From positions 1 through 26,128 of the IMG/VR virus record IMGVR_UViG_3300031834_000035: a DNA stretch of 26,128 nt; one strand, 5' to 3'. The notes beneath the pieces are model-generated. The model had not been told where the DNA came from, made no database searches, and was given only the letters and a program-made list of their open reading frames with translations. The translations under genes were made by a program, and so were the position numbers. The first letter of the stretch is position 1. Each line of letters opens with the position of its first letter. Below are positions 2,608 to 26,128 of this stretch, in pieces. This DNA comes from a virus.

Positions 2608-2904
2608 ATGAAAATAATAATAACGGAATCTCAAGTGGCATTAATAAGAAGGTTAAGTGAGTTAGATCAAATTCTTGATACTAATATTAAAGAATTAAAT
2701 AATGATATAAAAGGTGGTGGGCCAGGTAATAAACCTGATAATTTTGGCGTTTATGAAAATTGGTTGATAAATAGAATTAAAAATGATTTTGAAGATAATA
2801 ACCCAAAGATTGAATTTCCAATTCACGATTTTAAGATGTTAGTATCAGGGCAATTTAATGATAAAATTAGAAAAGGTTTTAATAAAGTTAAAAAGAGAAG
2901 ATGA
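2608..2904 (+). CDS. Tagged small hypothetical phage protein (98 aa)
   Basis: The frame is open from further upstream (2536), but ATG 2608 is chosen because it places the tag MKIIITESQVALIRRLSE at the N terminus and follows a purine-rich GAGGAA, one of the few Shine-Dalgarno-like sequences here. R-L-S-E is the candidate cleavage site. The mature part is basic towards the C terminus (KIRKGFNKVKKRR), which could suit DNA binding inside a capsid. Its TGA overlaps the next ATG (ATGA, 2901-2904). Function unknown. Confidence 0.78.
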   Translation: MKIIITESQVALIRRLSELDQILDTNIKELNNDIKGGGPGNKPDNFGVYENWLINRIKNDFEDNNPKIEFPIHDFKMLVSGQFNDKIRKGFNKVKKRR

Positions 2905-3488
2905 AAATAATATTAACAAAAAGACAACAAAGGTTAATAATTGAAAATTTTACAGAGGAAAACCTTCGTAAGTTGTGTTATCAAATTTGGAACCAACAAA
3001 AAAAAGAAGGAGAAGAACCCAATCTTGATGACATAATTTATTCAATATCGGGAATCAATAAAAATACAAGGGAAGATTACGACACTATTAGACCAATTTG
3101 GTATGAATACAATGGAGGTTATGATGTATTATTTGAAAAACTTAAAAATAAAATTGACACTAAGGAATATAAGTTAGTTGAGGCTGAATTTGATTTGGAA
3201 ACCAAAATAAAGGTTGTCCATCTTGATATTGTAGGACATTTTGTTGAAATTATGGTTGATGTTGATCCTAGTGGAACTATAGAATTTCATGGTTGGGATG
3301 AAGAAACTGGGGAAGAATACGTGGTAAAAGACACAATAGACGCTGCTTATCATGAGGCGTTACTTAATTATGAAGGTGCCGAATTTCAAGGAATGATTAG
3401 AAGTTCAGTATATGATTTATTTTATAATTTATTAGAAAAATATGGAATTCCAATTGATGTGGATATTGACTTAAAAGAAATTTATTAA
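2901..3488 (+). CDS. Tagged hypothetical phage protein (195 aa)
   Basis: Unrecognised protein starting with MKIILTKRQQRLIIEN, a tag variant with L-I-I-E as possible processing site. It has a helical N-terminal region (about residues 20-45, with YQIWNQQKKEGEEP) and an acidic alpha/beta C-terminal half with many D/E residues (DVDPSGTIEFHGWDEETGEE). There is no signal peptide or membrane helix. It starts in a 4-nt ATGA overlap with the 2608 gene and is the last of the five consecutive tagged genes. Confidence 0.8.
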   Translation: MKIILTKRQQRLIIENFTEENLRKLCYQIWNQQKKEGEEPNLDDIIYSISGINKNTREDYDTIRPIWYEYNGGYDVLFEKLKNKIDTKEYKLVEAEFDLETKIKVVHLDIVGHFVEIMVDVDPSGTIEFHGWDEETGEEYVVKDTIDAAYHEALLNYEGAEFQGMIRSSVYDLFYNLLEKYGIPIDVDIDLKEIY

Positions 3489-12470: not shown

Positions 12471-13592
12471 ATGAAAATTAAATTGGAATATGTGTGGTTA
12501 GATGGATATAAACCAGAACCTAACCTCAGAAGTAAAGTTAAGATTGTTGAATACAATACAGTTAAAAACGCATTTTTAGATGGGAATTTTCCTATGTGGA
12601 ATTTTGATGGATCATCAACTAACCAAGCTAAAACTGGAAACTCAGATCGTATTTTAAAACCTGTTAGACATTATATGAAAGACATGTCATCAACGGTTTA
12701 TGTTTTATGTGAGGTATTAAATCATGACGGGTCACCACACGAGTCAAATAAAAGATCAAGTATTGGTGAAGGTTTTGAAGATCTTTGGTTTGGTTTTGAA
12801 CAAGAGTATTTTATTCGTGAAGAAATTAATGGGAATATTTTAGGACATAAAAGAAATAGCCTTAAAGGACAAGGTGAGTATTATTGTGGTGTGGGACATA
12901 ATGTTGTTGGTCGTAAGTTTGTTGACGAACATACAAATATGTGTTTAGATTATGGTATTAATATTACAGGAACAAACGCTGAAGTTGCGTTAGGTCAGTG
13001 GGAATATCAGATATTATCTAAAGGTAAGTTAAAAGGAGGGGACGATCTTTGGATGACTCGTTATTTCTTACACAAAGTTGTTGAAAATTATGGTTACCAT
13101 ATTGAACTTCACCCAAAACCAATTCAAAATGGTGAATGGAATGGATCAGGTCTTCATACAAACTTCTCAACAGACATTATGAGACTTGACGGGGATGAAG
13201 AATACTTCATGGCACTACTCAACGCATTTGAATCAAGGCACAATGATCACATTAAAGCTTATGGTTCTAATAACAATCTAAGATTAACTGGGGAGTATGA
13301 AACTCAGGCAATTGATAAATTCAGTTGGGGTGTATCTGATCGTGGAGCGTCAATTAGAGTTCCTCAGGACACAGCAAAAGAATGGAAAGGATATATTGAA
13401 GATCGAAGACCAGGGTCAAATGCTGATCCTTACAAGATCATTCGTGAAATTGTTAAATCACTTGATGTTACACAACAAATATACGATACAAAAAATATGA
13501 TGACCTCATTTGTTGATATGGATGGTCTTAATGGGAAATACGGAACAATGCCCAACGATGAGTTATTAAAAGAATATAGAGAAGAAGAATAA
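12471..13592 (+). CDS. glnII: Glutamine synthetase type II (GSII, eukaryote-like)
   Basis: Catalyses ATP-dependent synthesis of glutamine from glutamate and ammonia. 373 residues, the usual size of GSII (about 350-370) and shorter than the 450-470 of bacterial GSI. Visible in order: WNFDGSSTNQA (43-53), GFEQEY (108-113, metal ligands E110 and E112), YYCGVG (137-142), E171 and GQWEYQ (175-180), NGSGLHTNFST (224-234, with catalytic-site H229), SDRGASIRVP (289-298), and YIEDRRPGSNADPY (308-321) with E310 and the conserved arginines. The key residues are therefore present, so an active enzyme is likely. Such a gene in a phage is an auxiliary metabolic gene that could raise glutamine for nucleotide synthesis during infection. 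It overlaps DUF3310 by one nucleotide. Confidence 0.92.
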   Translation: MKIKLEYVWLDGYKPEPNLRSKVKIVEYNTVKNAFLDGNFPMWNFDGSSTNQAKTGNSDRILKPVRHYMKDMSSTVYVLCEVLNHDGSPHESNKRSSIGEGFEDLWFGFEQEYFIREEINGNILGHKRNSLKGQGEYYCGVGHNVVGRKFVDEHTNMCLDYGINITGTNAEVALGQWEYQILSKGKLKGGDDLWMTRYFLHKVVENYGYHIELHPKPIQNGEWNGSGLHTNFSTDIMRLDGDEEYFMALLNAFESRHNDHIKAYGSNNNLRLTGEYETQAIDKFSWGVSDRGASIRVPQDTAKEWKGYIEDRRPGSNADPYKIIREIVKSLDVTQQIYDTKNMMTSFVDMDGLNGKYGTMPNDELLKEYREEE

Positions 13593-16691: not shown

Positions 16692-17303
16692 ATGAAAAAA
16701 TTAATATTAAATGAAAAACAATATAATAGACTTCAAAATATTATTATTAATAAAGCTATCATAAGTGAACAAACAAAAAGTCAAATAATGATAATCCAAC
16801 AAAGACTAAAAGAATGTTTTAGTGCCTATCTTGGAACTTCAGGGCCTAACAAAGATGGTGTTGATGGAGTTGCTGGTGATAAAACAAAAACTGCTATAGA
16901 AACATATACAAAATATCGTTTTGAACAAAATGATAATTCAGAAAATTCTGATTTAGTTACGAATCCAGATGTAGAGGCAAAAAAACAAGAAGTTTTAGTA
17001 TTCCTTAATAAATTAAAAGAGTCTAATACTAATCAAATAGTTAAAAATCAAATAGAAAAAAGTATAACCGAATTAAATAATATGAGTACAGATTCAATTT
17101 GTGAAAATAATCAATTAAAACCTGAATTGGCTAAAAAATTAGCAGAATCTAAAAAAGATCTTAATAATTATCGATCTCTTATTAACGATCCAGAAAAATT
17201 AATTGACAAAATTATTATAAACATGACTTTTATTGAAGAATATTGTCAATCAAAAAATAAATCAAGTGATGTTGTCATAGATGACTCAGGTTTACTAGCT
17301 TAA
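16692..17303 (+). CDS. Tagged protein with peptidoglycan-binding-like domain
   Basis: 203 residues. N terminus MKKLILNEKQYNRLQNI then KAIISE-Q (about residue 27) is the recurring tag with a candidate cleavage site. Residues about 34-75 (IQQRLKECFSAYLG, then DGVDGVAGDKTKTAIETYTK) match the PG-binding-1 pattern of x-L-Q-x-x-L ... D-G-x-x-G-x-x-T-x-x-A-V/I. Such domains target phage lysins or virion proteins to the cell wall. The rest is charged and helical with no catalytic motif. It is the first gene of a TATTTAT-driven pair; the second starts 8 nt later. A virion-associated wall-binding role is inference. Confidence 0.75.
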   Translation: MKKLILNEKQYNRLQNIIINKAIISEQTKSQIMIIQQRLKECFSAYLGTSGPNKDGVDGVAGDKTKTAIETYTKYRFEQNDNSENSDLVTNPDVEAKKQEVLVFLNKLKESNTNQIVKNQIEKSITELNNMSTDSICENNQLKPELAKKLAESKKDLNNYRSLINDPEKLIDKIIINMTFIEEYCQSKNKSSDVVIDDSGLLA

Positions 17304-17311
17304 AAATTACT

Positions 17312-18064
17312 ATGAGAAATAAATTTACATTAAATGAAGGTGAAGTCCAAAGAATATTAGGGTTACACAAACAGGCTATTTTAAAAGAGAATAAAATAAT
17401 CTTATCTGAGGGTAATGAAAATACCCTTTATAAAAATACTAACTACAAAACTAAAAAAGAACAAAGGTTTGCAAAAGAAAGTGATATTGCCGATGCCATA
17501 GTGATTGATCCAGGGGTCACATTTTATAAATATGGAACGGATAAAGCTGTCGCTTATAATGTTCCTATTAAAGTTAAAGTTAAGGGTGGATATACAGCAG
17601 GAAAAGCTTCATCTACCCAAAATATAACATTCTATTGCGCAAAAGGTAAATATAGATTTAGTGGTAAAAACAAAGGCGTTTTTTATTATTCTCAAACAGG
17701 TATATCTGCGGCACTTGTAAAAAATATTTGCCAAAAAGAAGGTGTATTACCTAATGGAAAAAAAGTTGATGGAACTAGTAATTACAATTCTAAAAAAAAC
17801 ACTAAAGATAAATCTAATAAAGACACTAAAGATAAATCTAATAATAATACTAAAGTTAAGGGTAATAAATATACTTTTGATTTTGATGCCATTATGAAGG
17901 CAATTAACGATACAGGAAAATGTGCCGGATCTTGGGGTTCATCCGATGGAACAAACGGCACAAGTGGAACTCAAGGAACATCAGGAACAAATGTAATCCA
18001 AAATCCGTTACCAATTAATAATAAAATATCTGCAGAACTCTATTATAAAATAATAGCACCTTAA
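17312..18064 (+). CDS. Tagged low-complexity phage protein, putative virion-associated (250 aa)
   Basis: Starts MRNKFTLNEGEVQRILGLHK, the same RILGLH region as the 336 product, then KIILSE-G at about residue 34 as candidate processing site. The middle (about 85-145) is a beta-rich domain with Cys and aromatic residues (STQNITFYCAKGKYRFSG). A Lys/Asn/Asp-rich repeat follows (three degenerate 8-residue units, NTKDKSNK-like, about 160-185). Near the C terminus is a Gly-Thr repeat (GTNGTSGTQGTSGTN), comparable to the TNGVAG repeats at the left end. No known family. A structural or packaged role is likely from tag and composition. A terminator follows. Confidence 0.77.
   Translation: MRNKFTLNEGEVQRILGLHKQAILKENKIILSEGNENTLYKNTNYKTKKEQRFAKESDIADAIVIDPGVTFYKYGTDKAVAYNVPIKVKVKGGYTAGKASSTQNITFYCAKGKYRFSGKNKGVFYYSQTGISAALVKNICQKEGVLPNGKKVDGTSNYNSKKNTKDKSNKDTKDKSNNNTKVKGNKYTFDFDAIMKAINDTGKCAGSWGSSDGTNGTSGTQGTSGTNVIQNPLPINNKISAELYYKIIAP
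17798..17869 (+). repeat. Three degenerate 24-nt repeats encoding NTKDKSNK
   Basis: Three adjacent in-frame units in the 17312 gene encode NTKDKSNK, DTKDKSNN and NTKVKGNK. The first two are nearly identical at the nucleotide level. Boundaries approximate. Confidence 0.75.
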
Positions 18065-18070
18065 TATAAA

Positions 18071-18092
18071 GGGAGTTTGACTCCCTTTTTTT
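18071..18092 (+). terminator. Rho-independent terminator after the 17312 gene
   Basis: GGGAGT, loop TTG, ACTCCC (18071-18085), then TTTTTTT. Confidence 0.92.
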
Positions 18093-18108
18093 ATGCAATT
18101 TTTTTTCT

Positions 18109-18116
18109 TATATTTG
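18109..18116 (+). promoter_or_regulatory. Bacteroidota-type -7 box (TATATTTG) for the kinase gene
   Basis: TATATTTG ends 4 nt before ATG 18121, directly after the terminator. A -33 TTG at standard spacing is not evident. The transcript would be leaderless. Confidence 0.65.
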
Positions 18117-18120
18117 TACT

Positions 18121-18510
18121 ATGGAAAAAATGATATATCTAGTTAGAGGAATACCAGGAAGTGGTAAGACAACTTTTGCAAAACAATTAACTCCAAATGT
18201 ATTTGAAGCAGACCATTATTTTTATGATAATGACGATAACTACAATTTTATTGCATCTGAAATAAAAGAAGCTCATAAAGAGTGTCAACAATATGTTGGA
18301 TATGCAATGGAGTCAAACACACCAAAAATTGCGGTTTCTAACACATTCACACAAGAGTGGGAACTTCAACCATATTATGAATTGGCAATTAAGTATGGTT
18401 ATTATGTGACCTCTATTATTGTTGAAAACAGACACGGAGGCACAAATGTACACGATTGCCCTGAAGATATGATCCAATTAATGAAAGATAGATTCAATAT
18501 AAAATTATAA
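18121..18510 (+). CDS. P-loop kinase, polynucleotide-kinase/N4BP2-like
   Basis: 129 residues. Walker A is GIPGSGKTT (10-18), preceded by a hydrophobic strand (MIYLVRG). The segment EADHYF (28-33) corresponds to the Asp of the first conserved strand, and AVSNTFTQEWELQPYYELAI then the end HGGTNVHDCPEDMIQLMKDRF match the N4BP2-like/AAA_33 kinase family, related to phage polynucleotide kinases. It would phosphorylate RNA or DNA 5' ends or a small molecule. It stops 3 nt before the metallophosphoesterase, so the two form an operon; with the ligase and cREC genes this suggests end-processing for RNA repair. Confidence 0.85.
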   Translation: MEKMIYLVRGIPGSGKTTFAKQLTPNVFEADHYFYDNDDNYNFIASEIKEAHKECQQYVGYAMESNTPKIAVSNTFTQEWELQPYYELAIKYGYYVTSIIVENRHGGTNVHDCPEDMIQLMKDRFNIKL

Positions 18511-18513
18511 GAA

Positions 18514-19167
18514 ATGAAATTTGATGACATATTAACAACGGGTGTAGTTTGGGTCACATCAGACACACACTACAACCATAAAAACATTTGTAGATCTGTG
18601 ACTAATTGGAGAACCCAAGATGGGGATGTCCCTACTTACAATACTAGAGATTTTCAATCGATAGATCAGATGAATGATGCTTTGGTAAACAATATTAACT
18701 CTAAAGTTGGTCAAGACGATACTCTAATTATGTTGGGCGATATTGCTTTTGGTGGATTTGAAAGTATTGGTAAGTTTTTAGATCGTTTGGTTTGTAAAAA
18801 CATTCATCTTGTTTTAGGAAATCACGATCACCACATTAGAAATAATCGAGAAAACATTCATGATCGTTTTATAAGTGTTAGCGATTACTTACAAGTTAGA
18901 ATTAATAATCAAGACTTTGTTTTAAGTCACTACCCATTTGCAAGTTGGAATGGGTTAAACAAAGGAGTGATTCACTTACACGGACATGTTCACTTATCTA
19001 ATCAAAACAAATGGGGTAATGGAAAACGACTAGATGTTGGTGTGGATGGTAATGGATATTTTCCTTATAAAATTACTGAGATTGTTCATATGATGGATCG
19101 TCGTGAGATTGGATCTGATTTAAGTAATGATCACCACCTTGATGGTTTAGTTGGGGTTGTAGGATAA
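18514..19167 (+). CDS. Calcineurin-like metallophosphoesterase
   Basis: 217 residues with all five metal-binding motifs of the superfamily: D17-T-H19 (SDTHYNH, 16-22), GDIAFGG (75-81), GNHDHH (102-107), H139 (LSHYPF, 137-142) and HGHVH (156-160). The fold corresponds to a small cytoplasmic phosphodiesterase. Substrate not evident; similar phage and bacterial proteins occur with kinases and ligases in RNA or DNA repair cassettes, where they trim 2',3'-cyclic or 3' phosphates. Operonic with the 18121 kinase. Strong motif match, substrate unassigned. Confidence 0.92.
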   Translation: MKFDDILTTGVVWVTSDTHYNHKNICRSVTNWRTQDGDVPTYNTRDFQSIDQMNDALVNNINSKVGQDDTLIMLGDIAFGGFESIGKFLDRLVCKNIHLVLGNHDHHIRNNRENIHDRFISVSDYLQVRINNQDFVLSHYPFASWNGLNKGVIHLHGHVHLSNQNKWGNGKRLDVGVDGNGYFPYKITEIVHMMDRREIGSDLSNDHHLDGLVGVVG

Positions 19168-19182
19168 ACTATGACTTTAATA

Positions 19183-19190
19183 TATTTATT
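19183..19190 (+). promoter_or_regulatory. TATTTATT late-type promoter-like box before the 19194 gene
   Basis: TATATTTATTAG ends directly before ATG 19194 with the core TATTTAT 4 nt from the start. It switches from the enzyme operon to a tagged gene, consistent with late expression. Confidence 0.52.
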
Positions 19191-19193
19191 AGT

Positions 19194-20441
19194 ATGAAAA
19201 ATATTGTCATAACTGAAAGTCAATTAAAAATAATTACAGAAGCTTTAGGGGTTCCAGATAATATTTTGGATGCTGCCGATATGTTATATGATGTTGTTGA
19301 ACAAGACATCAAAACAATCGATACCATTCAAGACGAGTACAACTTTGATGGAGAAATTAACTTTGAATTGGGAAATAAGAAAAAAATTAAAATTGATTCA
19401 TATACTCTTACTGTAAAAATTGAGGAGATTGAAGACGAAAAAGGAGGTGTCTTAGACATTATTTCAATGGGCATGGAAGGTGGTTTTGGGTTTAATAGAG
19501 ATGTTTATATGAAAGAAACAGAACCCTCAACAACTTTAGAGTTGAGTATAACTTTTGCTGTTGGTGAAAATTGGGAACCTGAAGGACTAATTCAAAAAAT
19601 GGAAGAAGAAAGAGATGAGCATGTTTCATCTTTATCTCATGAAATAAAACACAAATACGATAAACAGTCAAAACAATTTGGTTTAATGGGTCTTGATGCT
19701 GAATATCAAGCAACACAAAAAAGAGGTACTTTTGGAATACCTGCAATTGATAGTGTTTTTTATAGGTTTATGTATTATATCCATGCAATTGAAAACCTTG
19801 TCAGACCTACAGAAGTTGCATATTCTATGAAAAGAAAAAATATTACAAAGTCACAATTCAAAGAGTTTTTAGAAAACAATAGAGTTTATAAAGAGTTGTT
19901 AGAAATTAAAAACTTTTCATTTGATGATTTTATTTCACAATTAAAAGAACAAGAAGAAAGATTAGATGCTCTCTTGGAACACATTAATGATGATCCATCC
20001 AATATGACAATAGATGAAAAAATAAAAAGAGTTTTAGAAGTCGTTCATATTGATTTGGTAAATAATAAAATGGACTTGTTTGTAGAAATGACCTCACACT
20101 CAAGCGACGATTTTTTACGAATGGCTTTAGACATAGGGTTATTACCCCCAAACGCTGAAAAAAATATAGAAGGACTTAAAAAAACAAATGAAATTAGACA
20201 AAAGTTTTTTAATTATGTAATTAAATACCAAGAAAACCCAACTAAATTTTTTGAAAATGAGTTTAAAAGCTTTAACTTTGTTGCAAACAAAATGTTAAAA
20301 AAAATATCAAAATTATATGCTATGGCAAAAGACGATGAACAAGTTAGCGAATCAATTATTAATTGGGAACTTCATCAACAAATTATGGAAAAAAAATATG
20401 GTAAAAGAAAAATAGAAACCAAATACAAATACAAAAAATAA
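19194..20441 (+). CDS. Tagged putative zinc metalloprotease (HExxH)
   Basis: 415 residues. MKNIVITESQLKIITE-A is a clean form of the tag with I-I-T-E|A at residues 13-17. A region with beta strands follows (60-120), then SSLSHEIKHKYDKQSKQFG with HEIKH at 149-153, the zincin HExxH motif. IENLVRPTEVAYS (199-211) follows, with E207 a possible third ligand. The C-terminal half is helical and highly charged. No signal peptide, so it would be packaged in the head and delivered with DNA, where it could cut host or phage proteins. HExxH alone is short, but the surrounding L-S-H-E-I-K-H-x-Y-D context is typical. A terminator follows. Confidence 0.72.
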   Translation: MKNIVITESQLKIITEALGVPDNILDAADMLYDVVEQDIKTIDTIQDEYNFDGEINFELGNKKKIKIDSYTLTVKIEEIEDEKGGVLDIISMGMEGGFGFNRDVYMKETEPSTTLELSITFAVGENWEPEGLIQKMEEERDEHVSSLSHEIKHKYDKQSKQFGLMGLDAEYQATQKRGTFGIPAIDSVFYRFMYYIHAIENLVRPTEVAYSMKRKNITKSQFKEFLENNRVYKELLEIKNFSFDDFISQLKEQEERLDALLEHINDDPSNMTIDEKIKRVLEVVHIDLVNNKMDLFVEMTSHSSDDFLRMALDIGLLPPNAEKNIEGLKKTNEIRQKFFNYVIKYQENPTKFFENEFKSFNFVANKMLKKISKLYAMAKDDEQVSESIINWELHQQIMEKKYGKRKIETKYKYKK

Positions 20442-20444
20442 AAT

Positions 20445-20478
20445 AAACCCCACAAAAAAAGTGGGGTTTCTTGTTTTT
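20445..20478 (+). terminator. Rho-independent terminator after the metalloprotease-like gene
   Basis: AAACCCCAC (20445-20453), A7 loop, GTGGGGTTT (20461-20469), then a T-rich tract. The -33 TTG of the next promoter lies in its tail. Confidence 0.9.
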
Positions 20479-20502
20479 AATCAAAAAACTTTATTATCTT
20501 TG
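20471..20502 (+). promoter_or_regulatory. Bacteroidota-type promoter (TTG / TATCTTTG) for the 20507 gene
   Basis: TTG at 20471-20473 and TATCTTTG at 20495-20502 with a 21-nt spacer; the box ends 4 nt before ATG 20507. It decides the start: the longer frame from TTG 20471 would begin within the promoter. Confidence 0.75.
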
Positions 20503-20506
20503 TTTT

Positions 20507-20686
20507 ATGGAAACTCCCTGCAAAGAATGTCCGCACTTTATTAAGAATCGTCATAATGATATGATTGTTGAATTTGGTCGTAGGACTGGTAAGAAACATA
20601 ATTGTCATATGACCGAAGGGGTGAAAGATTTGTGGAATGTTACAGATAAAAAATTAGAATGTTATGGATCAAAAAAAAATATATAA
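20507..20686 (+). CDS. Small Cys/His-rich putative metal-binding protein (59 aa)
   Basis: METPCKECPHFIK places C-x2-C-P at the N terminus (C5, C8), with NCHM (about 32-35) and LECYG (about 51-55) providing further Cys/His ligands. This C-x-x-C-P ... C-H spacing resembles small phage zinc or iron-sulfur proteins related to DUF6283. Start set by the -7 box immediately upstream. First gene of an operon of very short genes (20507-22745). Function unknown. Confidence 0.75.
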   Translation: METPCKECPHFIKNRHNDMIVEFGRRTGKKHNCHMTEGVKDLWNVTDKKLECYGSKKNI

Positions 20687-20688
20687 AA

Positions 20689-20910
20689 ATGGATAGTAGA
20701 GAAATTATTTACGGAGTGTGTGATAAAACAGGGAAATGTGATTCCTATTTTGGGTTCTTCAAAAATGAAAAAGATGCGGAACACGAAGTTGAAATCCAAT
20801 CCAACAGGCTTAAGGAAGACTTGGGTATGATGGATATTGATATTCAAACAGACCGAGCATTATTCAATGGTAAATTAGTAATAGTAATTCATAGATACGT
20901 ATTAAGATGA
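20689..20910 (+). CDS. Small hypothetical protein, paralogue of the 23564 product
   Basis: ATG 20689 is preferred over the earlier in-frame 20659, which lies inside the preceding gene. The 73-residue product (MDSREIIYGVCDKTGKCDSY...) shares the frame IIYGV-x-D-[KR]-T with a later C-D-x-Y-F-G-[FY]-F-K-[NK]-E-K-D-A segment, and an LR end with the 23564 product. No known family. It overlaps the next start by 4 nt (ATGA). Conservation of both copies suggests the protein is maintained. Confidence 0.75.
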   Translation: MDSREIIYGVCDKTGKCDSYFGFFKNEKDAEHEVEIQSNRLKEDLGMMDIDIQTDRALFNGKLVIVIHRYVLR

Positions 20911-21209
20911 AAACAAGAGAAACTAAATTTGGAACATATATAGAAATGGAAACAGAAACAAGCACAAAATTAACTGGTGATAAGATCACAGTATTTGTAG
21001 AAAGATTGAAAAAAATTGGAATTGAGGTTAAACTTCAGGGTAATTTCCCATGGGTTTATATTAATGAAATCTGTGGTAAAAGAGTTACTGAAAAGTTTGA
21101 GGGGAATCACGGTTTTACTTTAATATTTTTACCAGGTAGAAACGATAGTCCACCATCAGAATTTACAGATATTACAGAAATTTTTAAACTAATACGAAAG
21201 TATATATGA
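20907..21209 (+). CDS. Small hypothetical protein (100 aa)
   Basis: Unrecognised, compact alpha/beta pattern: a charged N-terminal strand pair (TKFGTYIEMETE), a helix (TVFVERLKKIGIEVKLQ), then beta segments (FPWVYINEICGKRV) and GFTLIFLPGR. No catalytic motif. Four-nt overlaps on both sides (20907-20910 and 21206-21209) indicate a tightly coupled operon with the 20689 and cREC genes. Confidence 0.75.
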   Translation: MKTRETKFGTYIEMETETSTKLTGDKITVFVERLKKIGIEVKLQGNFPWVYINEICGKRVTEKFEGNHGFTLIFLPGRNDSPPSEFTDITEIFKLIRKYI

Positions 21210-21613
21210 ATAAAAAAATATATCTAGATGATGTTCGTACACCGGTAGACCCAAGTTGGATTGTTGTTCGTTCTTATGATGAATTTGTTAGTAAGATAAA
21301 TGAAATTGGTTTAGAGAACATTGAGTTAATATCTTTGGATCACGATTTGGGTGATAGTGCTATGAGAGAATGGCATTACGGTGTTGTAAAAAACTATACT
21401 ATCAATTACGATAATATAACAGAAAAAACTGGTATGGATTGCACCAAGTGGTTAGTGAATCAATGGTTAGATGGTAAACATATTGTTGAAGTTGTAGTCC
21501 ATTCGGCAAACGCTGTGGGTAGTGGTAATATGATGGGATACATCAACAACTACCGACACTTAAATAGATTGGAACAAAATTGTGTAAGAGTTAAAATTGA
21601 ACATACAGTATAA
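21206..21613 (+). CDS. cREC: cyclic-phosphate processing receiver-like domain protein
   Basis: 135 residues. LDDVRTP (7-13) and ISLDHDLGD (42-50) carry the acidic residues of the receiver-like fold, and VVHSANAVGSGNM (97-109) is a conserved H-S-A-N signature. This pattern matches the cREC family, described in RNA-repair contexts as a predicted processor of cyclic-phosphate RNA ends and distinct from two-component receivers by lacking the partner kinase and the phosphoacceptor layout. It lies directly upstream of an RNA ligase, which supports end healing before sealing. Cytoplasmic. Confidence 0.85.
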   Translation: MNKKIYLDDVRTPVDPSWIVVRSYDEFVSKINEIGLENIELISLDHDLGDSAMREWHYGVVKNYTINYDNITEKTGMDCTKWLVNQWLDGKHIVEVVVHSANAVGSGNMMGYINNYRHLNRLEQNCVRVKIEHTV

Positions 21614-21626
21614 AAAAATATAGAAA

Positions 21627-22745
21627 ATGGAAAATTTAAATAGCGTATGTTATGTTGGTGTAATCGGAGAGGTTAAACCAATAGAAGGTGCTGACAACAT
21701 AGAACTTGTGATGGTTAATGGTTGGAATGCCATAACTAAAAAAGTAGAATATAAAGTTGATGATTTGGTTGTTGTTGCAACCACCGATGCGGTTATACCA
21801 CAAAAACTTTCTGATGGATTAGGTGTTACAAGTTATCTTCGTAAAGGTCAGAGAGTAAGAACTATAAAACTTCGTAAGGTTTACTCTGAATGTTTAATAA
21901 TACCAATAGAGTTTGTTCCGGAAAAATATAGATACGATGGTTCTGACTGCATGGAGTTACTTAAAGTGTTCAAATACGAACCACCTGTTAAGATGGTTCA
22001 GTTAAGTGGGGGTAGAAAATTCAAATACCACCAAAACCCTAACTTTCATGTCTACCACAAGTTTCCTAACTTAAAAAATGCGCCTGAAATGTTTAACGAA
22101 GAAGACATAGTTACTGTTACTCGTAAACTTCACGGAACAAATGCTCGTTATGGTATTGTAAGAAAGAAAAGACTTTCATTCTTTGATAGAGTTAAAAAGT
22201 TATTTGGAAACAAATGGGTTAACTACGAATATGTTTATGGATCACACAATGTGGAGAAAGGTTCTGACTCTCAAGGTTTTTATGAAACAGATGTTTGGAG
22301 AACGATCTCAGATAATTACAAAATAAAAAATAAACTATGGGATTATGTTAAGACATTTGGTAGTCCTGACTATTTGGGTGATGGGTTAATCATCTATGGT
22401 GAGATATATGGTCATGGTATACAAAAAAATTATGATTATGGTTTAACCGATGTTAAGTTTGCTGGTTTTGATGTTGAATTAAATGGTGATTACCGACCTT
22501 ATCATGACGAAAAGAATGTCTTTGAATCGTTGGGATTACCAAGAGTTGAGGTTCTTTATTTGGGAACTTGGTGCAAAGAAAAACAAGATAAATATGTGTT
22601 CAATAACAATATAGAGGGAACCAAAGTTCCTCACGAAGGTGTAGTTGTTAAATCAGTTACAGGTGATAGGCACAAAGTTGGTAAAGTAATCAATCCTGAT
22701 TATAGTATATTCTGTGAAAAAAATAATGTAGGTGACTCACATTAA
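21627..22745 (+). CDS. RNA ligase, Rnl5-like (N-terminal OB domain + nucleotidyltransferase)
   Basis: 372 residues. Residues about 1-120 form an N-terminal OB-like module, as in the Deinococcus DraRnl/Rnl5 type. Nucleotidyltransferase motifs: I, RKLHGTN (166-172) with adenylated K167; III, IIYGEIYG (255-262); IIIa, FAGFDVE (278-284); IV, EGVVVK (337-342); V, a Lys-containing KVGKVINPDY (350-359). These residues are present, so it should be active, sealing RNA or RNA-led ends with ATP. The C-terminal 76 residues are duplicated downstream at 23033-23263. Likely partners are the cREC gene 14 nt upstream and the kinase and phosphoesterase at 18-19 kb. Confidence 0.9.
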   Translation: MENLNSVCYVGVIGEVKPIEGADNIELVMVNGWNAITKKVEYKVDDLVVVATTDAVIPQKLSDGLGVTSYLRKGQRVRTIKLRKVYSECLIIPIEFVPEKYRYDGSDCMELLKVFKYEPPVKMVQLSGGRKFKYHQNPNFHVYHKFPNLKNAPEMFNEEDIVTVTRKLHGTNARYGIVRKKRLSFFDRVKKLFGNKWVNYEYVYGSHNVEKGSDSQGFYETDVWRTISDNYKIKNKLWDYVKTFGSPDYLGDGLIIYGEIYGHGIQKNYDYGLTDVKFAGFDVELNGDYRPYHDEKNVFESLGLPRVEVLYLGTWCKEKQDKYVFNNNIEGTKVPHEGVVVKSVTGDRHKVGKVINPDYSIFCEKNNVGDSH

Positions 22746-22793
22746 CTTGACAATTTTATTTTTTTTTATTATTTTTTTTAAAAAATAAAAAAT

Positions 22794-22997
22794 ATGCAAA
22801 CATTAACATTTAACACAACAAAAAAAGAAGTAATTTTGATTAATTCACAAGGAGATATAATTTACTTTCAACACAACGTCCCAACAGTAAAAGTGATGGA
22901 CCAACATTATGAAGTTTATGTTGAAGATTTTGATGGTAAAAAAATTCCAGAATTTAGAGCTCCAATTGCTAATACAAATATGATCATTGAAAAATAA
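22794..22997 (+). CDS. Small hypothetical protein between two ligase 3' copies (67 aa)
   Basis: MQTLTFNTTKKEVILIN... is a beta-rich soluble protein without a recognised family. It is separated from the ligase by an AT-rich segment (22746-22793, T-run then A-run) and lies directly before the duplicated ligase end, so it is the cargo between the two repeats. No tag and no membrane segment. Its position suggests that it was inserted or kept when the ligase 3' end was duplicated. Confidence 0.65.
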   Translation: MQTLTFNTTKKEVILINSQGDIIYFQHNVPTVKVMDQHYEVYVEDFDGKKIPEFRAPIANTNMIIEK

Positions 22998-23003
22998 TAG
23001 GGT

Positions 23004-23132
23004 ATGGATGAGAATCAAGAACGTATAAAAAAAATGTCTTTGAATCGTTGGGATTACCAAGAGTTGAGGTTCTTTATTTGGGAACTTGGTCCAAAGAAAA
23101 ACAAGATAAATACGTATTCAATAACAATATAG
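23004..23132 (+). CDS. Possible chimeric 42-codon ORF running out of frame into the ligase fragment
   Basis: ATG 23004 begins MDENQERIKK, then reads the duplicated ligase segment in the wrong frame (MSLNRWDYQELRFFIWELG...) and stops at 23130-23132. The first 10 codons look like the start of a normal phage gene whose body was replaced by the duplicated ligase end. Probably not a functional protein; listed because it marks the recombination junction. Confidence 0.3.
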   Translation: MDENQERIKKMSLNRWDYQELRFFIWELGPKKNKINTYSITI

Positions 23133-23263
23133 AGGGAACCAAAGTTCCTCACGAAGGTGTGGTTGTTAAATCCGTTACCGGTGATAGACACAAAGTTGGT
23201 AAGGTAATCAACCCTGATTATAGTATATTTAGTGAAAAACATAATGTTGGTGACTCCCATTGA
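23033..23263 (+). pseudogene. Partial duplicate of the 3' end of the RNA ligase gene
   Basis: 231 nt align without gaps to 22515-22745, with about 15 mismatches by hand count. The frame matching the ligase (residues 297-372; NVFESLGLPRV to GDSH) is intact to a TGA at 23261-23263, but has no ATG; a TTG at 23048 is the only near start (71 codons). It holds motifs IV and V but not the catalytic lysine of motif I, so it cannot adenylate by itself. Most differences are at third codon positions; the amino-acid changes I see are two Cys to Ser (TWCK to TWSK, FCEK to FSEK) and one Asn to His. Confidence 0.85.
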
Positions 23264-23285
23264 TGGAGTCATTAACTTTTATTGT

Positions 23286-23294
23286 TATTTATAA
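23286..23294 (+). promoter_or_regulatory. TATTTATAA box before the 23307 gene
   Basis: TATTTATAAAAA lies 12 nt before ATG 23307 in the gap after the ligase duplicate. A member of the recurring motif. Confidence 0.5.
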
Positions 23295-23306
23295 AAAGAA
23301 AAAATT

Positions 23307-23567
23307 ATGGCAACATTTTGGACAAAAACGGAAATAGATTTGGATGTTAATGAAATCTATGAAAATTTATCAGATCGTGAGATTTTACAACTAGTTGATT
23401 TACTTGTTGAAGAAAATTTAGTAATCTCTACTAATACAATTAAGAGTGAAAGTATAAATTTTTTAGATGATGAGTGGAGGAAAACACTTATGGGCCTAAT
23501 AAATAATAGACACAGACTTTCAAATGAAGATGAAGAGATAATTAAATCAATTGCAAACAAATTATGA
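23307..23567 (+). CDS. Small acidic hypothetical protein (86 aa)
   Basis: MATFWTKTEIDLDVNEIYENLSDREILQLVDLLVEENLV has a beta start followed by a helical segment with hydrophobic i/i+3/i+4 spacing; the rest is helical and charged. No known family and no tag, even though a TATTTAT box precedes it. Ends in a 4-nt overlap with the next gene (23564-23567). Confidence 0.7.
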   Translation: MATFWTKTEIDLDVNEIYENLSDREILQLVDLLVEENLVISTNTIKSESINFLDDEWRKTLMGLINNRHRLSNEDEEIIKSIANKL

Positions 23568-23812
23568 TAGTAAAAGACAACGACCTGATATATGGGGTTT
23601 ACGATAGAACAAGAGGTATCGGAGGATGTGATGACTATTTTGGATATTTTAAAAAAGAAAAAGATGCAAAAAATGAGATGAAAATCCAATTTGAACATTT
23701 AAAAAGTAAAAACCCAAAAGAAACTTTTAAAATATATAAAGACAGAACGGTTAGGGTAAAAGAAAAAACAGAAGAGATTTTAATAATTATACACCCAATT
23801 TTATTACGGTAA
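23564..23812 (+). CDS. Small hypothetical protein, paralogue of the 20689 product (82 aa)
   Basis: Aligns with the 20689 product along its length: LIYGVYDRT with IIYGVCDKT, GCDDYFGYFKKEKDAKNE with KCDSYFGFFKNEKDAEHE, and a shared LLR/VLR end. The intervening helix has diverged and contains more Lys. Function unknown. It lies after the ligase fragment, so both the ligase end and this gene have second copies in this 3-kb region. Translationally coupled to the 23307 gene (ATGA overlap). Confidence 0.75.
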   Translation: MIVKDNDLIYGVYDRTRGIGGCDDYFGYFKKEKDAKNEMKIQFEHLKSKNPKETFKIYKDRTVRVKEKTEEILIIIHPILLR

Positions 23813-23852
23813 AAGTATAATATTGTAACAAACCACAAAAAAATAATTAAAA

Positions 23853-24860
23853 ATGACAGATAAAACTTTAGAAGAGATGAACGAAGAATTGACCAAACTT
23901 ATGGATGATATAGAAGATAGGCATATTGATGGTGTTGAATACTCATTACATAATAAAGAATTTAATGGATCAAATAAAAAAAATGAAAATTCGGCAACTC
24001 CAACATGTTGGGGGACATTACCTGACGAGGAGTTTGTTCCGGCTTTTAAATCGGTAGATAAAGTCCCTGCCGGTATTTATGAAATAGTGTATAATAGATC
24101 TTTAAACCAACACACAATAAAAAAACAACCATTCAAAACAGATGAATTATACCAATTACCTTCATACGAGATCCAAGACATCCTCAGGGATATCCAAAAT
24201 TTTTGGGATCGTCGTGACAAATATAGAGAATATAATTTTGTTCATAAGCGTGGGATTCTAATGTATGGCGAACCAGGATGTGGTAAGTCAGGAATCATTC
24301 AGTTAATTTCAAAACAACTAATTGAAAACGATGGGATTATTTTAAACATTAAAGATCATGACGATGTTGAATACTTTATTGATTTTATTGCAACATTTAG
24401 AAAGATTGAAGCTCACAGACCTTTAATTGTTTTGTTAGAAGATATTGATTCAATTGCGGGCGAAAATAATCATGCGACAAGTAAATTATTAAACATTCTT
24501 GATGGTGTAAAACAAATTGAAGATGTTGTTTATATTGCAACAACAAACTACCCTGAGAAATTACAAGAACGAATTACAAACAGACCTTCTCGTTTTGATA
24601 GACGATACAAAGTAGAACTTCCAAACAAAGAGATTAGAGATGCATACATTCGTCACAAATTGACAGATGAAGATCTTACAAATGTTGATATTAACGAATG
24701 GGTAAAAAGAACTGAAGGTATGTCTCTTTCACACTTGAAAGAAGTTGTAATTTCAACTATAGTTATGGGAAGAGAGTTTGAAGAGGTCATGGATAACCTT
24801 GAAGGATTAAAGAAAGCCCCAACAATTAAACCATCAAGTAAATTAGGATTTGGACGATGA
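23853..24860 (+). CDS. AAA+ ATPase
   Basis: 335 residues. Walker A GEPGCGKS (139-146), Walker B IVLLEDID (192-199), sensor-1 ATTNYPE (229-235) and the arginine-rich RPSRFDR (244-250) with the expected R-x-D-R finger. This resembles the FtsH/BCS1-type classical AAA clade. An N-terminal segment (about 1-130) without recognisable motifs could be a substrate-recognition domain. Residues 285-310 form the helical lid region. Roles might include remodelling of proteins or complexes during infection. A weak -7-like TAATATTG lies at 23818-23825. It overlaps the small membrane gene by 4 nt. Confidence 0.9.
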   Translation: MTDKTLEEMNEELTKLMDDIEDRHIDGVEYSLHNKEFNGSNKKNENSATPTCWGTLPDEEFVPAFKSVDKVPAGIYEIVYNRSLNQHTIKKQPFKTDELYQLPSYEIQDILRDIQNFWDRRDKYREYNFVHKRGILMYGEPGCGKSGIIQLISKQLIENDGIILNIKDHDDVEYFIDFIATFRKIEAHRPLIVLLEDIDSIAGENNHATSKLLNILDGVKQIEDVVYIATTNYPEKLQERITNRPSRFDRRYKVELPNKEIRDAYIRHKLTDEDLTNVDINEWVKRTEGMSLSHLKEVVISTIVMGREFEEVMDNLEGLKKAPTIKPSSKLGFGR

Positions 24861-25009
24861 AAAAAGGAATATATTATTTACCGTTGTGTTTGATATTACT
24901 ATTTGTAATGGTCGGGACATTTTATGTTGGTGATTATTTAGGATTTGTAATGTCAATAATATCAATTTTATTGTTAGGTGAAGTTTATTATCTAAGATTT
25001 ATAAAATAA
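24857..25009 (+). CDS. 50-residue membrane protein with two TM segments
   Basis: MKKGIYYLPLCLILLFVMVG begins the first TM (about 5-23), and GFVMSIISILLLGEVYYL is the second (about 29-46). ATGA overlap (24857-24860) with the AAA+ gene implies coupled expression, so it may anchor the ATPase at the membrane or act as a small membrane effector. No known family. There is no strong terminator before the next gene. Confidence 0.7.
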   Translation: MKKGIYYLPLCLILLFVMVGTFYVGDYLGFVMSIISILLLGEVYYLRFIK

Positions 25010-25047
25010 TTTATAAAATTTCCCTATATCAAAAAGGTGGGGTTTTA

Positions 25048-25056
25048 TATTTATAG
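25048..25056 (+). promoter_or_regulatory. TATTTATAG late-type promoter-like box before the 25060 gene
   Basis: TATTTATAG lies 3 nt before ATG 25060 (core TATTTAT 5 nt away). Confidence 0.5.
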
Positions 25057-25059
25057 AAT

Positions 25060-25578
25060 ATGAAAAGATTAATAGAAAGAATTATCAGAGAATATCTTTT
25101 GGAGGAAAGAAAATTCCCCAAACAAAAAGGTAGTGAAGTCTATGATAAAAGGTTATATAGTATCATATCCACATACCATCAGTGGTTTGATAGGCATGGA
25201 GATAATTCGTATGATCAAAATATTGATTTATTTTATGAAAAAAATAATTCAGATAACAATTATAGGATTGGTGTTAGTGATAGGTTATTAATACCATTAA
25301 TTAAAAAAAATATTGGTAAGATTATTGATAGTTTTAAAATGCACAATCCTTGTAATAAAAGAATTATTTTTACAAATAAAATATTAAATAATGAGAATGA
25401 AGAATATTTTGATTTTACAGAGTTTATTATCCAAAAAGATGAGAATGAATTAAAAATTGTTAGTTCTGCTTTTTCTGAAGACGGTAACTTTTTATATTTT
25501 GGTGTTAGACCAAGAAGTAAAAAAGAAAATTTAAAAGAAAATTCATGTAAAAGTGGAGATATAGTTGTAGAATTATAA
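25060..25578 (+). CDS. Tagged hypothetical phage protein (172 aa)
   Basis: MKRLIERIIREYLLEER is a basic amphipathic helix ending Y-L-L-E|E, which fits the tag. The body is an alpha/beta protein with a Tyr/Trp/His-containing segment (STYHQWFDRHGDNSYD, about 37-52), and a C-terminal part with Glu/Lys-rich linker (RPRSKKENLKENSCKSGD). No catalytic motif recognised. It is monocistronic: a TATTTAT box upstream and a TATCTTTG promoter immediately downstream. A virion-internal role is inferred from tag and promoter. Confidence 0.75.
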   Translation: MKRLIERIIREYLLEERKFPKQKGSEVYDKRLYSIISTYHQWFDRHGDNSYDQNIDLFYEKNNSDNNYRIGVSDRLLIPLIKKNIGKIIDSFKMHNPCNKRIIFTNKILNNENEEYFDFTEFIIQKDENELKIVSSAFSEDGNFLYFGVRPRSKKENLKENSCKSGDIVVEL

Positions 25579-25594
25579 AAAAGTATTATCTTTG
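25565..25594 (+). promoter_or_regulatory. Bacteroidota-type promoter (TTG / TATCTTTG) for a candidate noncoding RNA
   Basis: TTG (25565-25567) and TATCTTTG (25587-25594) with a 19-nt spacer, the best-spaced promoter of the window. No ORF starts downstream before the terminator at 25698. Confidence 0.7.
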
Positions 25595-25599
25595 TAAGA

Positions 25600-25731
25600 C
25601 AATTGATTGTTATTGGTTCAATCATTAAAAAATACCAATCGTAGGGTGTCTGGCGTAATCCGACACAGGTTGAAAATCCCACCCTTAGGTAAAATCAATC
25701 CCCACTGAAATATGTGGGGATCTTTTTTTTT
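25600..25731 (+). ncRNA. Candidate structured small RNA (promoter, hairpins, terminator)
   Basis: Between a strong promoter and an intrinsic terminator lie about 130 nt with no plausible ORF but several inverted repeats: GATTG/CAATC (25605-25609, 25619-25623), which competes with ATTGGT/ACCAAT (25612-25617, 25634-25639); AGGGTG/CACCCT (25643-25648, 25680-25685), which competes with an inner GTGTC-T-GG/CC-GACAC hairpin (25646-25666); and the terminator. The competing pairings suggest a two-state RNA, but they may be chance. No tRNA cloverleaf or known riboswitch class was recognised. An RNA of this length in a phage could be antisense, decoy or regulatory; only the architecture is supported. 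Confidence 0.45.
25698..25731 (+). terminator. Rho-independent terminator of the candidate RNA
   Basis: ATCCCCAC (25698-25705), loop TGAAATAT, GTGGGGAT (25714-25721), C, then nine T. Confidence 0.93.
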
Positions 25732-25735
25732 AGAT

Positions 25736-25759
25736 ACCCCATCTTAATTGATGGGTTTT
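25736..25759 (+). terminator. Second hairpin with short T-tract
   Basis: CCCATC (25738-25743), loop TTAATT, GATGGG (25750-25755), then TTTT. It follows the previous terminator by 4 nt and may be a back-up terminator or part of the next RNA element. Confidence 0.55.
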
Positions 25760-25766
25760 AGGGCCG

Positions 25767-25786
25767 TTATCCGTTAGGGTAACGAT
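25767..25786 (+). other. 8-bp hairpin CGTTATCC/GGGTAACG
   Basis: Inverted repeat with one T-G wobble and a 4-nt GTTA loop, lying between two terminator-like hairpins. It is too short to be an obvious regulatory element but is unlikely to be coding. Confidence 0.55.
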
Positions 25787-25791
25787 TTAAA

Positions 25792-25819
25792 GGGGGAATT
25801 CGCTACTCCCCCTTTTTTT
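25792..25819 (+). terminator. Rho-independent terminator before the 25848 gene
   Basis: GGGGGA (25792-25797) and TCCCCC (25807-25812) around ATTCGCTAC, followed by seven T. Third terminator-like hairpin in about 125 nt. Confidence 0.88.
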
Positions 25820-25835
25820 ATTTAATTCTTTTATT

Positions 25836-25843
25836 TATATTTG
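25836..25843 (+). promoter_or_regulatory. Bacteroidota-type -7 box (TATATTTG) for the 25848 gene
   Basis: TATATTTG ends 4 nt before ATG 25848, right after the terminator, giving a leaderless transcript. No clear -33 TTG. Confidence 0.65.
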
Positions 25844-25847
25844 TATT

Positions 25848-25931
25848 ATGACAATTGGAACCATATTGTTTATTGTTTTAATCCTATGTATTGGGATATG
25901 GGGTAAACACGGAAAACACTTTAAAAAATGA
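25848..25931 (+). CDS. 27-residue single-TM peptide
   Basis: MTIGTILFIVLILCIGIW is one hydrophobic helix followed by a basic C-terminal tail (GKHGKHFKK), which should face the cytoplasm. Its -7 box and a 4-nt overlap (ATGA) with the HAD gene support translation. Possible roles include a small membrane effector or a leader coupled to the next gene; none can be assigned. Confidence 0.6.
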   Translation: MTIGTILFIVLILCIGIWGKHGKHFKK

Positions 25932-26128
25932 AAGTAATATTTTTAGATAACGATTCCGTAATTTGTCTATCCAATAATTGGGGTGGAAGAACAAAGAAAT
26001 GGGCAAAATACCGAAGAGCAAATCCTGACAGTAGTGATGAAAAAAAAAATGCTCCTGTATCTGTACGATTTGATGACTTTGATAAAAAGGCAATTAAAAT
26101 CCTTAATGAGATACTTGAAGAAACAGGA
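25928..26128 (+). CDS. HAD-superfamily phosphatase-like protein, RNA-repair type (3' truncated by the window)
   Basis: The first strand VIFLDNDSVICLS has the HAD nucleophile and acid/base Asp pair (D7, D9), with Ser where most HAD proteins have Gly. A later segment FDDFDKKAIKILNEILEETG matches the helix preceding the second motif in phage HAD proteins of the type found in RNA-repair enzymes (HAD_SAK). 67 codons are visible, and the remaining motifs lie beyond the window. Expected function: removal of phosphates from RNA or nucleotide ends, in keeping with the kinase, cREC and ligase genes. Overlaps the 25848 gene by 4 nt (ATGA). Confidence 0.7.
   Translation, partial: MKVIFLDNDSVICLSNNWGGRTKKWAKYRRANPDSSDEKKNAPVSVRFDDFDKKAIKILNEILEETG

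Follow-up and report, generated by a model that had tools for sequence, protein, structure and literature searches.

In the virus genome analyzed here, the 3' end of an RNA ligase gene is present twice, with a small foreign gene between the two copies. We consider it very probable that this structure is the footprint of a horizontal insertion of the small gene, in which recombination was homologous within the ligase gene and illegitimate at the other end. The window, by which we mean the whole stretch of DNA analyzed, is a virus record of 26,128 bases; all the features of the event lie on its plus strand.

The ligase gene and its duplicated 3' end

The ligase gene (21627..22745) is intact and encodes a DRB0094/Rnl5-like protein of 372 aa with an N-terminal OB-fold and a nucleotidyltransferase part. 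A family search matched the protein to PF21189 (1.8e-14) and PF09414 (2.1e-14), both above the cut-off, and a PHROGs search matched it to phrog_968 (5e-54). The ligase is a relative of the DRB0094/Rnl5 type and no strict member of it, since the score against the TIGR02306 equivalog (87.8 bits, 6e-25) was under the cut-off of 151. The nearest solved structure was that of the Naegleria gruberi RNA ligase. All matches to the ligase protein among isolated phages were less than 60% identical, with 23-28% in the rows listed, and the whole region had no match in isolated-phage DNA. A search of bacterial genome contigs did not find the ligase, and no close named relative or host emerged from the isolated-phage DNA and protein searches.

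A repeat search of the window identified a gap-free direct repeat of 234 nt with 94% identity at an offset of 518. Copy 1 (22510..22743) is the true 3' end of the ligase, as indicated by the repeat search and by codon comparison, while copy 2 (23028..23261) is a remnant of this end. Apart from this pair, the longest direct repeat of the window had 65 nt and 77% identity; a 234-nt repeat at 94% cannot be chance. The original prediction of a gap-free 231-nt repeat at this offset, with about 15 mostly synonymous mismatches, was confirmed at a length of 234 nt with 15 mismatches. When synonymous and nonsynonymous changes were counted, 12 of the differences were at third positions and all synonymous, and the other three were the replacements C316S, C363S and N366H, which include the two Cys to Ser changes that had been claimed.

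The segment between the copies

Judged from its counterparts in related phages, the segment between the copies is foreign and consists of a 67-aa gene and the first ~10 codons of a 106-aa neighbour gene. It opens with a noncoding leader (22744..22793, AACTTGACAATTTTATTTTTTTT...), and the same leader lies between a ligase scar and the 67-aa gene in four other contigs (L031, L034, L035 and L048). The accessory gene itself (22794..22997) has 41 relatives in IMG/VR, L002 (described below) included. Beyond it, at 23004, begins the 106-aa gene (MDENQERIKKM...), which is cut after ~10 codons, so that a 42-aa chimeric ORF (23004..23132) runs out of frame into copy 2. The 106-aa gene is intact in L003, L030, L031 and others, and the intact gene, MDENQERIKKMYLRINSEPN..., follows the 67-aa gene in L003, L030-L035 and others; the two genes are thus adjacent elsewhere in related phages. 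Family searches, PHROGs included, gave the 67-aa protein chance-level hits only and no match at a meaningful E-value, and it had no match in isolated phages. A mobile intron or homing gene was rejected as a candidate, as the inserted gene had no homing-endonuclease match and the ligase is uninterrupted.

The last 12 nt of the repeat, GTGACTCACATT (22732..22743), end with the first base of the stop codon of the ligase, and relatives that lack the ligase carry the identical sequence as a ligase scar ahead of the 67-aa gene. This scar is 12 nt long in L031, L034 and L048 and ~60 nt long in L035, while in L030 it precedes a 1-kb gene which in turn precedes the 67-aa gene. Together with L039, these ligase-less contigs retain 12 nt or ~60 nt of the ligase end directly in front of the 67-aa gene or of the gene upstream of it, and the ligase has apparently been lost at least twice at this spot. 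Whole-record searches of the scar-bearing contigs found no ligase besides the scar of L035, and as the records may be fragments such absence is no proof.

The illegitimate joint and the proposed route

At the right end of the insert (23028..23043), the donor sequence AAAAAAATGTATTTGA of the 106-aa gene and the ligase sequence AAAAGAATGTCTTTGA (22510-22525) share a 16-nt microhomology with 14 of 16 positions identical, and the product reads AAAAAAATGTCTTTGA before it continues as ligase sequence. Only one place in the ligase gene reached a score of 14/16, and a sample of 200,000 random donor/ligase position pairs contained none that did. The A-rich microhomology that the original prediction placed at the junction is real, and it is longer than was stated.

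These joints suggest the following route. During a co-infection, DNA of a related phage with the order ligase 3' end (or scar), 67-aa gene and 106-aa gene would have recombined with this phage. On the left side, homologous exchange would have occurred inside the ligase 3' end; on the right side, an illegitimate event at the 16-nt microhomology would have joined the start of the donor 106-aa gene to ligase position 22510. With this joint placed ~231 nt before the end of the ligase, that end would now be present twice. Copy 1 would complete an intact ligase, and copy 2 would be left as a remnant whose terminator-like hairpin closes the new unit of ligase and 67-aa gene. For a single crossover, the donor molecule would have had its small-gene end already joined to the ligase end, as in a circle or a concatemer.

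Relatives with and without the duplication

The duplication and the joint were found in a second contig, L002 (IMGVR_UViG_3300031746_001195), in the same form as in the window. Relative to the window, its copy 1 is 98.3% identical, its spacer is 97.6% identical with a 7-nt insertion, and its copy 2 is 100% identical. Over 12.7 kb the two contigs differ in 24 alignment columns, mostly at 18139-18553, in copy 1 and in the spacer. The patch at 18139-18553 has 11 differing sites in 0.4 kb, with hardly any elsewhere in the 12.7 kb, and probably arose when an allele of the kinase-like gene was recently exchanged. No contig in IMG/VR beyond the window and L002 had the junction pattern; the two represent one lineage and the event was seen once.

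A third contig, L001 (IMGVR_UViG_3300032275_000015), has a single ligase end. Here the flank of copy 2 follows immediately on the complete copy 1, so that precisely 518 bp are missing. It has zero differences to the window over 23262-26128 and one substitution over 18055-22743. Separately, at window position 17980, L001 has an 18-nt insertion within a 250-aa protein, beside a low-complexity stretch. The other relatives with a complete ligase, L003-L024, likewise have a single ligase end and no duplication.

The original prediction had raised the prospect of an assembly artefact, which here would mean the merging of two co-existing strains. The contigs are metagenomic records from IMG/VR and L001 shows that a single-copy form exists, both of which would suit such an error. 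However, L002 is a separate contig that shares the joints and yet has a 7-nt indel and other differences of its own, and it would not be easy for an assembler to invent one donor-ligase joint twice. The contigs are likely fully independent of each other, and we regard an artefact as extremely unlikely.

The right-hand flank of the event carries an 86-aa gene (23307..23567), which lies directly 3' of the single-copy ligase in L001 and L021; family searches with its protein gave weak chance-level matches only. This flank bears on whether the ligase 3' end and the 67-aa gene were duplicated in tandem within one genome, after which the second 67-aa gene was lost and mutations made the copies diverge. 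Such a history would leave the A-B-A order and a microhomology joint, as seen here. On the other hand, there was no trace of a second spacer past copy 2, where the sequence is the native flank of L001 and L021, and a simple tandem duplication was rejected on this ground. Moreover, all states of copy 1 and all but one of those of copy 2 occur in intact ligases of other phages, which argues for allele exchange and not for divergence after duplication. The 67-aa gene was also undetected in several single-copy relatives (L001, L004, L005, L006 with 292 kb, L008 and L013; these records may be fragments). A tandem origin is thus very unlikely.

Allele pattern and the donor

The tree of the 228-nt segment was poorly resolved, and we therefore used the patterns at informative sites. 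Outside the joint, 14 sites were informative. From left to right, L003 shared the state of copy 2 at nine of them and then that of copy 1 at the remaining five (222222222|11111), a single-switch pattern with a chance of 2/C(14,5)=0.001 by a statistic chosen after the sites were viewed. Up to 22702, the first four fifths, copy 2 was 98.9% and copy 1 94.1% identical to L003, while over the last 41 nt copy 1 was 97.6% and copy 2 85.4% identical. Just upstream of copy 1, the window at 22327-22509 was also nearly identical to L003. The original prediction of a recombination remnant, possibly with donor DNA from a related phage, was supported to this extent by comparison with related-phage ligases: the spacer is donor DNA and copy 2 matches the L003 lineage over its first four fifths, while the relation is reversed over the last 41 nt.

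A single crossover, at some point between 22695 and 22711, with a donor in circular or concatemeric form may have produced the reciprocal pattern. We give this reading about even chances, as the identical pattern would result if copy 1 had later received a conversion patch, and as the stretch just upstream is L003-like as well. In L003 itself, a 1-kb gene lies between the ligase and the 67-aa gene. The order full ligase, AACTTGACAATTTT leader, 67-aa gene and intact 106-aa gene did not occur in any contig found, and the direct donor was thus unseen.

Within the insertion explanation, a variant is that the donor was a ligase-less phage of the L031 type with only the 12-nt scar and that short matches served for both joints. 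One way to this would be template switching, with a single replication fork going back into the ligase at an upstream point and so copying the ligase end two times. In favour of this variant, a gap-free alignment of 297 nt shows 98.0% identity between the window and L031/L032 across the leader and the 67-aa gene. In addition, copy 1 of L002 becomes L003-type only at its last A (22739), which would place the switch in GTGACTC. Against this variant, it leaves unexplained why most of copy 2 is so like L003 (98.9%) and copy 1 less so, and copy 1 of the window and of L001 is L003-like at five sites, not one. We hold it to be the rather unlikely form of the insertion.

The coding status of copy 2

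Copy 2 is open in the ligase frame (23033-23260), and the original prediction that it lacks an in-frame ATG and motif I proved correct. Its translation begins at ligase residue 297, past motif I (KLHG), so that the motif I lysine of the nucleotidyltransferase is missing, and it retains EGVVVK (motifs assigned by eye). The sole start listed for this frame was the TTG at 23048. The only upstream ATG, at 23004, reads copy 2 out of frame and meets a stop at 23132.

It had also been proposed that copy 2 is a selected C-terminal fragment, that is, a retained and translated part of the ligase with its own function. The open frame, the dN/dS of 0.06 between the copies and the identity of copy 2 in the window and L002 would all accord with this. 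However, the low dN/dS and the synonymous bias can be traced to alleles that pre-existed in full-length ligases and not to selection on the fragment, and copy 2 is confined to one lineage and absent from L001. The proposal was rejected on the missing ATG and the out-of-frame upstream ATG, and we give it almost no credence. Copy 2 is a by-product of the insertion and, from its reading frames, is probably untranslated. As a warning for similar cases, a gene fragment is not necessarily under selection when dN/dS between such copies is low.

The hairpin and the proposed later history of the site

Where copy 2 passes into its flank, the sequence forms a terminator-like hairpin, GTGACTCCCATTGATGGAGTCAT (23246..23276, -16.5 kcal/mol), at what is the native place of this hairpin behind the ligase. 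Most single-copy relatives have a comparable hairpin made of the last ligase codons and the flank (-15.8 kcal/mol in L007 and -17.3 in L005). At copy 1 the hairpin is lost (-3.3 kcal/mol), whereas at copy 2 it is kept and in L001 it is weaker (-10.7 kcal/mol). The ligase and the 67-aa gene may accordingly be co-transcribed, with the copy-2 hairpin as a putative terminator.

The site appears to have changed further since the insertion. In L002, the four sites of copy 1 at 22712-22730 are of the copy-2 type while 22739 is not, a pattern consistent with gene conversion from one copy to the other. In L001, an A at 22739 occurs together with the flank GATGGAGTC, a combination that was unique among the relatives. 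We infer that L001 lost the 518-bp insert again by annealing of the copies, because a donor-type A at 22739 next to the recipient flank GATGGAGTC is just what annealing would give. L001 could also be a pre-insertion genome; the uniqueness of its combination, which weakens the hairpin, speaks against this. More generally, we propose tentatively, and with some doubt, that the ligase end is a recurring exchange site, at which genes were slotted in or the ligase was lost repeatedly, and that partial duplications let a new gene be excised and its gain be reversed. The cases in point are the window with L002, L001, the L031 type, L035 and the differing downstream genes of other relatives.

Other genes of the window

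Upstream of the ligase, 18121-21613 encodes a kinase-like P-loop protein, a phosphoesterase and a cyclic-phosphate-processing receiver domain (PF20274, 1.2e-21), a possible RNA-repair neighbourhood. The small genes at 20689-20910 and 23564-23812, which flank the ligase region, are paralogues with 41% aa identity (77% at the DNA level over 65 nt), and both start with a DLIYGVYD-like motif. A glutamine synthetase-like gene at 12471-13592, assigned by eye and matched in PHROGs to an unknown family only, is a possible auxiliary metabolic gene. A short N-terminal tag of the type MK-[IL]-I-[IL]-[ST]-E-x-Q-...-[IL]-x-E or ...RILGLHE recurs in many proteins (336-1184, 1270-1650, 1653-2057, 2057-2599, 2901-3488, 16692-17303, 17312-18064 and 19194-20441). 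By eye, the tag recalls the capsid targeting sequence, with its LxE cleavage site, of T4 internal head proteins.

Comparison with known systems

Phages of the T4 type reportedly carry promoter-terminator stem-loops (PeSLs). The hairpin described here is like them in being a terminator-like stem-loop after a gene at what may be a recurring boundary of gain and loss, and it is present in most single-copy relatives. It differs in that its 5' arm lies in the ligase coding sequence, and the likeness is to the stem-loop part, without the promoter part.

The closest known process to the insertion in the window is homology-facilitated illegitimate recombination (HFIR), which combines homologous exchange at one end with an illegitimate joint at the other. 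It is known from S. pneumoniae, Acinetobacter and P. stutzeri, and from conjugation in E. coli (PMC3240628). When HFIR was selected at lacZ in E. coli, most clones held a partial lacZ duplication, of 109-950 bp in the sequenced clones, which arose by single crossing-over with a circularised donor that was missing part of the fragment (PMC3240628). The anatomy of these duplications is that found here: the window has ligase 3' homology on the left with one switch relative to L003 (the direct donor not being found), foreign DNA between the joints, and a short-homology illegitimate joint that cuts the 106-aa gene. The difference is that HFIR was described in bacterial transformation and conjugation, whereas the event here would have taken place between phage genomes, as read from their sequence only.

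HFIR has also been proposed for the stepwise insertion of modules with leftover genes in Vibrio (PMC5361080). In the T6SS effector-immunity arrays of V. cholerae, as here, a conserved stretch anchors the module, the other end is non-homologous and the old sequence is displaced downstream (PMC5361080). The remnant there is a whole gene that is possibly active, whereas that of the window is an apparently untranslated gene end. The lambda Red system recombines sequences with 22% divergence efficiently, and the same study cites RecET acting on 5-13 bp (PMC2327257). The likeness lies in the mosaic exchange between diverged co-infecting phages. Phage mosaicism by homeologous and illegitimate recombination is already well established (PMC2327257). 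What stands out here is the resolution: both joints, the likely donor group, an insert-free genome and a sister genome are all visible, and a route of phage gene gain becomes readable base by base.
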